DNA from: an archaeon GW2011_AR15
GTDB lineage: Archaea; Nanobdellota; Nanobdellia; Woesearchaeales; GW2011-AR15
Direction: 5' to 3'
Assembly: GCA_000830295.1 (NCBI GenBank)
Contig: CP010425.1
Span: 932,884-996,883, forward strand
DNA: 64,000 bases
The stretch's first letter is position 1. Each line of letters begins with the position of its first letter. Shown here piece after piece: positions 11,290 through 28,776 of this stretch. The notes beneath the pieces are model-generated. The model worked only from the letters and a program-made list of their open reading frames with translations. It was not told where the DNA came from and did not search any database. The translations under genes and the position numbers were made by a program.

Positions 11290-11312
11290 TAGTGGGGAAA
11301 GGATCTAGAACC
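11290..11312 (-). repeat. partial copy of the tRNA-Met 3' end
   Basis: Bases 11290-11312 match the 3' end of the neighbouring tRNA-Met gene (11385-11406) apart from about three changes and one inserted base, including the GGGGAAAGGAT core. Integrases that target tRNA genes leave such partial copies, but a decayed tandem tRNA duplicate is equally possible because the copies are only 95 bases apart. A small hairpin (AACTGA/TCAGTT) follows on the plus strand. Confidence 0.5.
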
Positions 11313-11384
11313 AACTGAGAAATCAGTTGACACTTTGTGAGTTTCCTTTCAGTCAAGCTCACATAGAACTCTTTTATAAAAAAG

Positions 11385-11459
11385 TAGCGGGGAAAGGATT
11401 TGAACCTCCGACCTACGGGTTATGAGCCCGTCGGGCACTCCTGGCTGCCCTACCCCGCT
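11385..11459 (-). tRNA. initiator tRNA-Met (CAU)
   Basis: A complete 75-base cloverleaf without intron. The acceptor stem is AGCGGGG/CCCCGCT with an A1-U72 pair, and the anticodon is CAT (plus-strand ATG at 11422-11424). The anticodon stem ends in three G-C pairs (GGG/CCC). The A1-U72 pair and the three G-C pairs are hallmarks of archaeal initiator tRNA. CCA is not encoded. The gene faces away from the 11.6-21.3 kb accessory block, whose promoter lies about 80 bases upstream of the tRNA 5' end. Confidence 0.95.
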
Positions 11460-26572: not shown

Positions 26573-27817
26573 TTATGTAAGCTGAGCCTCAATCCTCAGC
26601 AGCTGATTGTACTTCGCAACTCTTTCTCCCCTGCATGGCGCCCCTGCTTTTATCTGGCCGCAGCCAAGGCCGACAGCAAGGTCCGCTATAAAGGTATCCT
26701 CAGTCTCCCCGCTCCTGTGGCTTACCATAACCTTCCAGTTGTTTCCAAAAGCGAGCTTGGCTGCCTGTATTGCTTCAGTCACTGTGCCGATCTGGTTGAT
26801 TTTCAGGAGAAGGGCATTGCAGGCATTTTTTTCCAGAGCCAGCTTTATCCTTTCGATATTTGTGACAAGTAGGTCATCTCCGATAACAGTGACTCCTGCT
26901 TTTTTCATGAAATAGCTCCAGGATTCAAAATCATCTTCTGCAAATGGGTCCTCTATAGAGAGTATGGGGTATTTGACAAGAAGCTTCATATAATAGGCCG
27001 CAAGCTCTTTTCCGTCAAGCTCTTTCTGTCCTGCCTTTGCTTTGCTTCCAAGCACATATTTTCCTCCCCTGTAAAACTCAGATGCAGCGCAGTCCAGCGC
27101 AATTTTTATTTTTCCCCTGTATCCAGACTGCCTTATTGCTTCCTCTATAAGCAGCAGAGGGGCCTCGTTGTCTTTTATTGGAGGGGCAAATCCGCCTTCA
27201 TCACCTACATTGACAGCATCAATCCCATATCTCTCTTCCAGGATTTTTTTCAGGGCATGATAAACCTCTGAACCCATCATCAGGGCCTCTTTGAAATCTT
27301 CTGCTCCGACAGGAACAATCATATACTCCTGTATGTCAAGGAGGTTGCCTGCATGCTTCCCTCCGTTTATTATATTGAAATATGGAATAGGCATTTTTGG
27401 GGTTGTCTCGGCAAGCTCGCTTAGATAATTATAGAGCTTCATGTTCTTTGCCTTTGCGCCTGCCCTGCAGACTGCCAGGCTCACAGCCAGCACTGCATTT
27501 GCACCAAGCTTTGCCTTATTTGGGGTTGAATCAAGCCTTGTCATCAGTACATCTATGAATTGCTGCTGTGTAACATCAAGGCCTATAAGCTTCGGGGCAA
27601 TCCTCATATTAATATTCTCAATCGCCCTTAAAACCCCTTTCCCTCTGTATCTTTTTCCTCCGTCACGGAGTTCAACAGCCTCATGCTTTCCTGTTGATGC
27701 CCCTGACGGCACAGCTGCCCTGACAGAAAATTCCTTAGTAAATAACTCAACCTCAACAGTAGGGTCTCCCCTGGAATCAAGGATTTCTCTTGGCACTATT
27801 CTTACAATTTCAGACAT
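26573..27817 (-). CDS. eno: enolase
   Basis: A 414-residue enolase that converts 2-phosphoglycerate to phosphoenolpyruvate. Recognisable are the N-terminal [15 protein letters not shown], the [14 protein letters not shown] loop, [10 protein letters not shown], the metal ligands in [10 protein letters not shown] and GDDLLVTN, and the signature [20 protein letters not shown]. The length is normal for archaea. It makes the PEP that the PPDK-like protein at 17427 would use, but the genes are not linked. It is divergent from the tRNA-Ser gene. Confidence 0.97.
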
Positions 27818-27952
27818 GTTTCACCCCGTTATGTAAAGTAAAGCCCCCAGAATAAAAATATTTCTATAAACTTTATAAAGAACGTGGATTTCTTTTGTTT
27901 CAAGTACTAACAATGCCACGGTGGCACAATCTGGTACTGCGCAGGATTGGAA

Positions 27953-28003
27953 TGCTAAAAAATCAAAGATTTTTGGCACATCAGAAACCTTTGGTTTCCA
28001 ATG
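27953..28003 (+). other. tRNA intron at the canonical 37/38 position
   Basis: A 51-base intron in the anticodon loop. TTGG (27947-27950) pairs with CCAA (27998-28001) as the four-base-pair central helix, flanked by three-base bulges AAT and TGA. Cutting between the second and third base of each bulge is the archaeal bulge-helix-bulge rule and yields a seven-base loop. The intron itself folds into two hairpins. Confidence 0.85.
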
Positions 28004-28033
28004 ATCCTGTCCCTTTGGGATTCCCGGTTCAAA

Positions 28034-28065
28034 AGCCAAGGAGGTTAGTTCCTCCGGCATGAAAT
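28034..28065 (+). other. tRNA intron in the T loop
   Basis: A 32-base insertion in the T loop. TTCA (28028-28031) pairs with TGAA (28060-28063), with bulges AAA and ATT, the same geometry as the first intron. Excision leaves TTCAAAT. Inside, GCC...GGAGG pairs with CCTCC...GGC as a stable stem. Introns near position 59/60 are known from some Thermoproteales; here one is combined with an anticodon intron. Confidence 0.75.
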
Positions 28066-28117
28066 TCCGGGCCGTGGCGTTTTTCTTCTCGTGAAAACTA
28101 TAGCTTAACCAAAAAGC

Positions 28118-28126
28118 TTTTATATT
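28118..28126 (+). promoter_or_regulatory. TATA box of the arv operon
   Basis: TTTTATATT lies about 27 bases before the ATG at 28150. Archaeal transcription starts about 25 bases after the TATA box, so the message would be nearly leaderless. This supports ATG 28150 over an in-frame TTG that overlaps the box. Confidence 0.5.
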
Positions 28127-28149
28127 TGAGAGTAAATGGTAATTTCAAT

Positions 28150-28776
28150 ATGTTTGATATGTTTAAGCGCCTGTTAGATAGCTTCTTTAACAGACTTTTT
28201 AAAGGGAAGAAGAAGGCTAAATTAGGGCTTTACGGGCCTCCAAACGGAGGCAAGACAACTCTGGCAAACAAAATATGCCAGGACTGGCTTGGCGAAGATA
28301 TGGGAACGACTTCTCCGATAGCCCATGAGACAAGAGAAATCCAGATAAAAGAACAGATAACAATAAAATCAAAGGGCAAGGAGCTTACATTTAACCTTGT
28401 GGATACTCCCGGGATTGCTACAAAGATTGATTACGAGGACTTCCTGAAATACATGGATGCCAAGTCAGCCAAGAAAAGGGCTAAGGAGGCAACAAAGGGA
28501 GTTATTGATGCCATAAAATGGCTGGATGATATGGATGTTGTGATAGTTGTGCTTGATGCAACACTGGACCCTTACAGCCAGGTTAATATAACTATAATAG
28601 GCAACCTGCAGGCAAGGAACATACCTGTAATAATAGCTGCCAATAAGATTGACCTTAAGAAGGCAAGCATAAAAAGAATTGAATCAGCATTCCCACAGTA
28701 CAAGGTTTTAGGGATATCAGCCAAATTCGGCACGCATATGGATGAGTTTTACGAAGAATTAATTAAGGTTTCATAA
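28150..28776 (+). CDS. arvA: small GTPase ArvA (OapA), vesicle formation
   Basis: A 208-residue Era/Ras-like GTPase with all switch motifs: G1 GPPNGGKT (29-36), a threonine-containing G2 region (MGTTSP), G3 DTPG near 92, G4 NKID near 165 and G5 SAKF near 190. The N terminus is amphipathic (MFDMFKRLLDSFFNRLFKG) and could touch membranes. Gene order GTPase, DUF2073 protein, zinc-ribbon protein is that of the ArvABC/OapABC set, whose GTPase drives extracellular vesicle formation in haloarchaea. The function here is inferred from that match. ATG 28150 is chosen because of the TATA spacing. Confidence 0.8.
   Translation: MFDMFKRLLDSFFNRLFKGKKKAKLGLYGPPNGGKTTLANKICQDWLGEDMGTTSPIAHETREIQIKEQITIKSKGKELTFNLVDTPGIATKIDYEDFLKYMDAKSAKKRAKEATKGVIDAIKWLDDMDVVIVVLDATLDPYSQVNITIIGNLQARNIPVIIAANKIDLKKASIKRIESAFPQYKVLGISAKFGTHMDEFYEELIKVS

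Follow-up and report, generated by a model that had tools for sequence, protein, structure and literature searches.

Position 59/60, in the T loop, is already listed as a tRNA intron site, and Nanoarchaeota are rich in noncanonical introns (PMC4090602). The α4 form of the splicing endonuclease EndA is narrow in specificity, whereas the (αβ)2 and ε2 forms are broad; efficient cutting by α4 enzymes is said to be limited to canonical motifs, and the D and T loops host canonical as well as relaxed motifs (PMC6379350). Because canonical motifs occur in T loops, a T-loop intron per se needs no broad enzyme. In the literature, with subscription journals incompletely covered, we found no account of T-loop introns or of tRNA-end elements in Woesearchaeota. 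Here we describe a doubly interrupted tRNA gene from the archaeon GW2011_AR15, which lies in a 64,000-nt stretch (positions 932,884 to 996,883 of CP010425.1, hereafter the window). Our main reading, to which we assign a probability of about 0.87, is that this tRNA-Ser(GGA) gene is functional and would give a 165-nt precursor with two bulge-helix-bulge (BHB) introns cut by a probable α4 EndA, that its T-loop intron belongs to a widespread 59/60 class, and that some introns of the lineage are copies of a short hairpin element.

The gene, at window positions 27915-28079 on the forward strand, lies between genes named from their sequences as enolase (26573-27817, −) and a small GTPase (28126-28776, +). 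Reading of the sequence, in silico splicing and ARAGORN identify it as a class II tRNA gene, tRNA-Ser(GGA), with two interruptions. A TATA-like box read from the sequence, CTTTATAAA (27871-27879, +), is located ∼36-44 nt 5′ of the tRNA, and AT-rich TATA-like stretches likewise precede many other tRNA genes in the genome. Exon 1 (27915-27952, +) provides tRNA positions 1-37, comprising the 5′ strand of the acceptor stem, the D arm, the 5′ strand of the anticodon stem and TTGGAA. Intron 1 (27953-28003, +), of 51 nt, interrupts the anticodon loop at position 37/38 and contains two hairpins, AAAAATCAAAGATTTTT and GAAACCTTTGGTTTC. Exon 2 (28004-28033, +) spans positions 38-59, from the 3′ strand of the anticodon stem through the variable arm and the 5′ strand of the T stem to TTCAAA. 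Intron 2 (28034-28065, +), of 32 nt, interrupts the T loop at position 59/60 and consists of a hairpin, GCC-AA-GGAGG/CCTCC-GGC, followed by A28059, the central-helix (H) strand TGAA (28060-28063) and the AT of the 3′ bulge. Exon 3 (28066-28079, +) supplies positions 60-73, with T60, the 3′ strands of the T and acceptor stems and the discriminator G73, and its end is abutted by a T run (28080-28084, +), which from its sequence is likely a transcription terminator. Removal of both introns leaves an 82-nt cloverleaf with a variable arm and G73, an anticodon loop of TTGGAAA and a T loop of TTCAAAT, which ARAGORN calls tRNA-Ser(gga) with or without CCA. ARAGORN found no tRNA in the unspliced gene or in a version lacking intron 1 only, and over the whole window it reported the initiator tRNA-Met only; Rfam gave no match at 27915-28079. 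The earlier note, made from the sequence alone, had given these coordinates, both insertions and the two restored loops correctly.

Several comparisons show that the restored tRNA is not a product of chance. In the same genome, tRNA-Ser(TGA) has an uninterrupted T arm, whose sequence, CCCGGTTCAAATCCGGG, is exactly that of the spliced tRNA-Ser(GGA). Moreover, a genome of the same genus (G001) contains an intronless tRNA-Ser(GGA) that is 73/83 identical to the spliced gene, and its alignment with the precursor opens a 32-nt gap that coincides exactly with the predicted intron 2; for intron 1 the gap is displaced, owing to a difference in the anticodon stem. In the 1.16-Mb genome, the pattern GGTTCRA-N10-40-TGAANNYCC occurs at three sites, compared with one for a reversed-pattern control. 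These sites are located in tRNA-Ser(GGA), in tRNA-Ala(TGC) and at the end of tRNA-Arg(GCG), and thus two of the three are tRNA T-loop introns. The tRNA-Ala(TGC) gene (L100, G000:C1:1043082-1043124, −), the second in this genome with a T-loop intron, also carries an anticodon-loop intron and was missed by the Rfam tRNA search. The presence of two BHB-type introns in a genuine tRNA-Ser(GGA) gene of a DPANN genome, as first proposed, is supported.

At each splice site the earlier note had described a BHB with a four-base central helix and three-base bulges, and this stood in part. At the T-loop site, RNAfold pairs TTCA (28028-28031, +), the 5′ strand of the central helix, with TGAA at 28060-28063, next to a 3′ bulge of ATT and a T stem of CCCGG (28023-28027) and CCGGG (28067-28071). 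On the 5′ side, the AAA bulge faces one unpaired base, A28059, forming a 3 × 1 internal loop. As modeled, the T-loop site is nonetheless close to a canonical BHB. At the anticodon site the central helix, TTGG/CCAA, could form together with a 3-nt 3′ bulge, TGA; the outer helix, however, is interrupted, so that the 5′ bulge has no continuous helix to close it, with the two hairpins coming next. The minimum-energy fold of the isolated anticodon arm favors a slightly shifted register, and in the RNAfold fold of the whole precursor the anticodon arm is absent altogether. An α4 enzyme would be strained on the 5′ side of each site, by the 3 × 1 loop in the T loop and by the lack of closure in the anticodon loop.

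The earlier note had taken the T-loop intron to imply an endonuclease of broad specificity and proposed that the subunit type be identified. A search with PF01974, carried up to E = 1, found one EndA gene only, encoding a 184-aa protein that has both an N and a C domain, and neither a second structural subunit gene nor a fused three-unit chain of ∼390 aa. Alignment with the M. jannaschii α4 enzyme (1a79) reveals a conserved Tyr/His/Lys triad and an acidic C-terminal, L10-like loop, DEEQD, opposite DADGD of that enzyme. Aligned with both 1a79 and 3iey chain A, the protein carries the triad and acidic loop on a single chain, while the N. equitans α subunit is two residues shorter and less acidic in the loop stretch. 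Nearly all of 60 genomes of the order have one short EndA gene. These sequence features indicate that the EndA of this genome is probably an α4 homotetramer. The alternative, splicing of the T-loop insertion by an (αβ)2 or ε2 enzyme, draws on the slightly relaxed BHBs and on a good match (122 bits) to the catalytic subunit of N. equitans, an (αβ)2 organism. Indeed, catalytic subunits from two organisms with (αβ)2 enzymes, M. kandleri and N. equitans, are among the PDB chains that match best, which leaves room for a very divergent β subunit. However, with a single PF01974 gene, the triad and acidic loop on one chain, a length far below that of the fused ε type (390 aa) and an order dominated by single short EndA genes, we regard a broad enzyme as unlikely. 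Thus, the narrow, α4-type features of the only EndA gene and the near-canonical T-loop site do not support the broad specificity first claimed.

T-loop introns had also been presented as rare, which the distribution contradicts. The pattern GGTTCRAAN{8,38}YGAANNTCC is matched in 232 of 288 genomes of the order. In the 60 genomes G000-G059, hand-summed counts gave 176 matches compared with 21 for the reversed-pattern control, so that roughly one match in eight may have arisen by chance, the tRNA location being shown for some of the matches. A stricter pattern with 22 fixed bases finds 89 stretches in named GTDB genomes, mainly of Woesearchaeota and Nanoarchaeota, with some from Aenigmatarchaeota, one from a Pacearchaeota and a few from Bathy-, Loki-, Heimdall- and other archaea, taxa that are partly metagenome bins whose names may be wrong. 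Among 80 named loci, ARAGORN reports a junction-spanning tRNA in 73 when they are spliced at 59/60 and in 4 when the intron is left in; the commonest are tRNA-Pro(TGG) (27) and tRNA-Ser (21). In relatives collected by BLAST, the T-loop intron of tRNA-Ser is present in G004, G009, G041, G052 and G059, as well as in tRNA-Ser(GCT) of G005, and is absent in G001, G008, G022 and others, giving a patchy distribution; splicing yields a junction-spanning tRNA in all of the intron-bearing genes except that of G052. Judged from these patterns, T-loop introns are common in Woesearchaeota and their relatives, neighboring DPANN lineages included.

The splice-site geometry of this class was assessed in the 73 named introns. 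A strict 3-4-3 BHB is present at minimum energy in 5 of these, compared with 0.1 for shuffled intron bodies. The central helix forms in 35, compared with 45.7 for shuffled bodies, which is no excess, while the central and outer helices form together in 33 (21.5 for shuffled bodies). Strict BHB geometry was rejected as a general trait of the class, as only the 5 of 73 fold in this way.

These data also bear on whether the gene is a decayed pseudogene with two insertions, the UCC and UCU codons being read by another tRNA. Its concealment from ARAGORN and Rfam as a raw gene and the many tRNA fragments in the genome would fit such a decay. Against it, all stems are intact once the gene is spliced, the discriminator is G73, the TATA-like box and T run are present, and dozens of species share the intron site with intact exons. 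The existence of another, intact tRNA-Ser(GGA), which the earlier note had named as grounds for regarding this copy as a pseudogene, was also addressed. None was found among the tRNAs of this 1.16-Mb single-contig genome, in which visual inspection supplied the anticodons of genes with introns, several of which ARAGORN misassigns, and none of the 36 tRNAs above the RF00005 cut-off is Ser-GGA. The tRNA list is incomplete, other expected tRNAs such as Asp being likewise missing, and a second Ser-GGA gene could therefore be hidden. The codons concerned are used 126 (TCC) and 196 (TCT) times in the 17,417 codons of window ORFs of at least 150 codons. As no other Ser-GGA was found, a dispensable pseudogene is improbable, and we give this explanation very little weight. 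Least credible is that the T-loop insert persists after maturation and lengthens the T arm, as the conserved T loop and its D-loop contacts would then be disrupted, the boundary of the excision product is exactly that of the intronless relative and the splice motif is common to many species.

We thus return to a functional, spliced tRNA-Ser(GGA). The gene would be transcribed as the 165-nt precursor, and EndA would cut on both sides of each four-base helix, TTGG/CCAA at the anticodon site and TTCA/TGAA at the T-loop site, splicing being deduced from sequence. The ligase, which in archaea is RtcB, would then join the exons. Intron 2 would be part of the large, patchy class of 59/60 introns of Woesearchaeota and related DPANN lineages, and at least some tRNA introns of this lineage, including two T-loop introns in a genome of the same family, appear to be copies of the hairpin element.

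The element is most evident beside tRNA genes. In 18 of the 41 tRNA genes of the genome, the end of the gene's own 3′ strand recurs exactly, over 11 to 17 nt, within 41 to 86 nt downstream (matches belonging to a neighboring tRNA were left out). More decayed copies at the Phe, Ile-TAT and Ser-GCT genes bring the total to 21 of 41, and seven of the copies match at 16/16 positions. Loci L050, L012, L047, L056 and L063 of this genome (G000) are examples of a downstream insert with a 3′-end copy, as is window segment 11290-11364. In the latter, a copy of the element (11306-11364, −) is located 3′ of the initiator tRNA-Met (11384-11459, −), and beyond it lies an imperfect (14/16) copy of the 3′ end of that tRNA (11290-11305). 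The inserts are hairpin-rich and mostly interrelated, with local alignment scores of up to 122, compared with at most 24 after shuffling; the short inserts of the Arg, Glu and Thr-TGT genes show a weaker relation to the others. At several tRNA genes, the element is located upstream in reverse complement, flanked by a copy of the 5′ end. Tandem repeats of an insert plus the tRNA 3′ end are found 3′ of tRNA-Ser at L070 (G038) and L084 (G047). The possibility that the downstream copies mark giant spliced T-loop introns was rejected as a general rule, as the pairing required ahead of the second copy is missing in many genes and several of the second copies are decayed.

A covariance model built from 12 elements, with E-values that are rough, finds 21 places in the genome and gives hits in 16 of the 30 genomes to which it was applied. 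It scores the window copy at E 3.2e-10, though that copy is among the model-building sequences, and, at E 1.3e-10, it recovers in antisense a held-out sequence, the tRNA-Gly(CCC) anticodon-loop intron. The element is also found away from recognized tRNAs, between direct repeats of ∼23-70 bp and apparently at the ends of genes (L266, L267, L268 and L269 in this genome, L238 in G005). In G005, which is of the same family, T-loop introns of 106 and 157 nt (L257 and L264) contain the element in antisense, and ARAGORN recognizes a tRNA when they are spliced out. ARAGORN likewise supports anticodon-loop introns with the element in two tRNAs of G006 and in G029. Thus, in the lineage, related introns interrupt more than one tRNA and more than one site, namely the anticodon loops of Gly-CCC, Arg, Thr and Ser and the two T loops of G005. 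In the window gene, intron 1 shares a 27-nt block (25/27), a simple palindrome, with the element 3′ of tRNA-Ser(TGA), whereas intron 2 shows no similarity to the element above the shuffled null, its 32 nt being short for such a comparison. We infer that the introns of the window gene too may derive from the element.

Homologous copies inside and beside tRNAs, together with the target duplications, argue for mobility, and the element is apparently mobile, as judged from sequence comparison. The lengths of the duplications vary more than is usual for a single transposase. Searches of the genome for candidate movers gave no match to PF01867 (Cas1), PF00078 (reverse transcriptase) or PF01797 (Y1 transposase), and an enzyme of these kinds encoded by the genome was rejected as the mover. 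No pair of close strains with an empty and a filled site was found, and when 14 loci, the majority of them with elements, were searched against Rfam, nothing but tRNAs scored above cut-offs. A broader reading, which we hold tentatively and at slightly less than even odds, is that two-hairpin elements of ∼70 nt in Woesearchaeota insert preferentially at the ends and loops of tRNA genes, keep the tRNA whole by duplicating the target end, and become BHB introns when inside a tRNA. They would thus be archaeal introners, creating T-loop and anticodon-loop introns that an apparently α4 EndA cuts even at relaxed motifs.

Other tRNA genes of the genome are also unusual. L050 (Ile-GAT) and L035 (Val-TAC) have probable D-loop introns whose removal yields an ARAGORN tRNA; that of L050 is labeled Ala because ARAGORN misplaces its anticodon intron. 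On visual reading, L021 (G000:C1:75138-75241, −) would be a tRNA-Ile(UAU), which decodes AUA in an unusual way. L039 (G000:C1:580538-580663) is an intron-bearing tRNA gene with an ambiguous anticodon, CCA by position, yet a separate tRNA-Trp is present. In addition, this small genome contains two differing tRNA-His(GTG) genes, L006 and L019.

The findings matter in several ways. tRNAs such as Ser-GGA, on which both gene finders failed, make genomes seem incomplete, in a lineage that is known chiefly through metagenomes. The abundance of T-loop introns alongside a single short, α4-like EndA provides a test of the rule that α4 enzymes cut only canonical motifs. Finally, element copies found as introns, beside tRNAs and elsewhere offer a concrete system for studying the origin of archaeal tRNA introns.

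Compared with known systems, the 59/60 BHB introns are a known class, of which tRNA-Ser(GGA) is a sound member and which is widespread in this lineage; the hairpin element is the more novel lead. As in Thermoproteales and other archaea with noncanonical BHB introns, the intron occupies the 59/60 T-loop site, has a BHB-type motif, accompanies an anticodon-loop intron and leaves a restored tRNA; in contrast to the Thermoproteales type, it occurs in another lineage, with a single short EndA with α4 features in place of a broad (αβ)2 enzyme (PMC4090602). In work from 2010, as far as it is described in PMC4090602 and PMC10714607, similar introns across tRNAs and sites likewise imply intron movement; compared with that description, the element here is also found outside tRNAs and at their ends, flanked by target copies, and is seen in antisense in introns. 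In Caldiarchaeum, a disrupted tRNA-Thr gene also shows how integration of a mobile element explains tRNA intron gain and tRNA fragments, though that element is 1.8 kb and encodes a recombinase, whereas the present one is ∼70 nt and geneless (PMC3293823). Casposons duplicate their targets over a comparable length, 14 nt in the case of MetMaz-C1, and their tested targets include a tRNA-Leu-like site (PMC10359463). The present genome, unlike casposons, has no Cas1, and its element is ∼70 nt, with duplications of ∼11 to >57 nt. Eukaryotic introner elements are short repeats whose insertions turn into introns. The hairpin element resembles these introners (cited in PMC11782384) as a short repeated element becoming introns, and differs in that the introns are those of archaeal tRNAs, cut by a protein endonuclease rather than spliceosomal.
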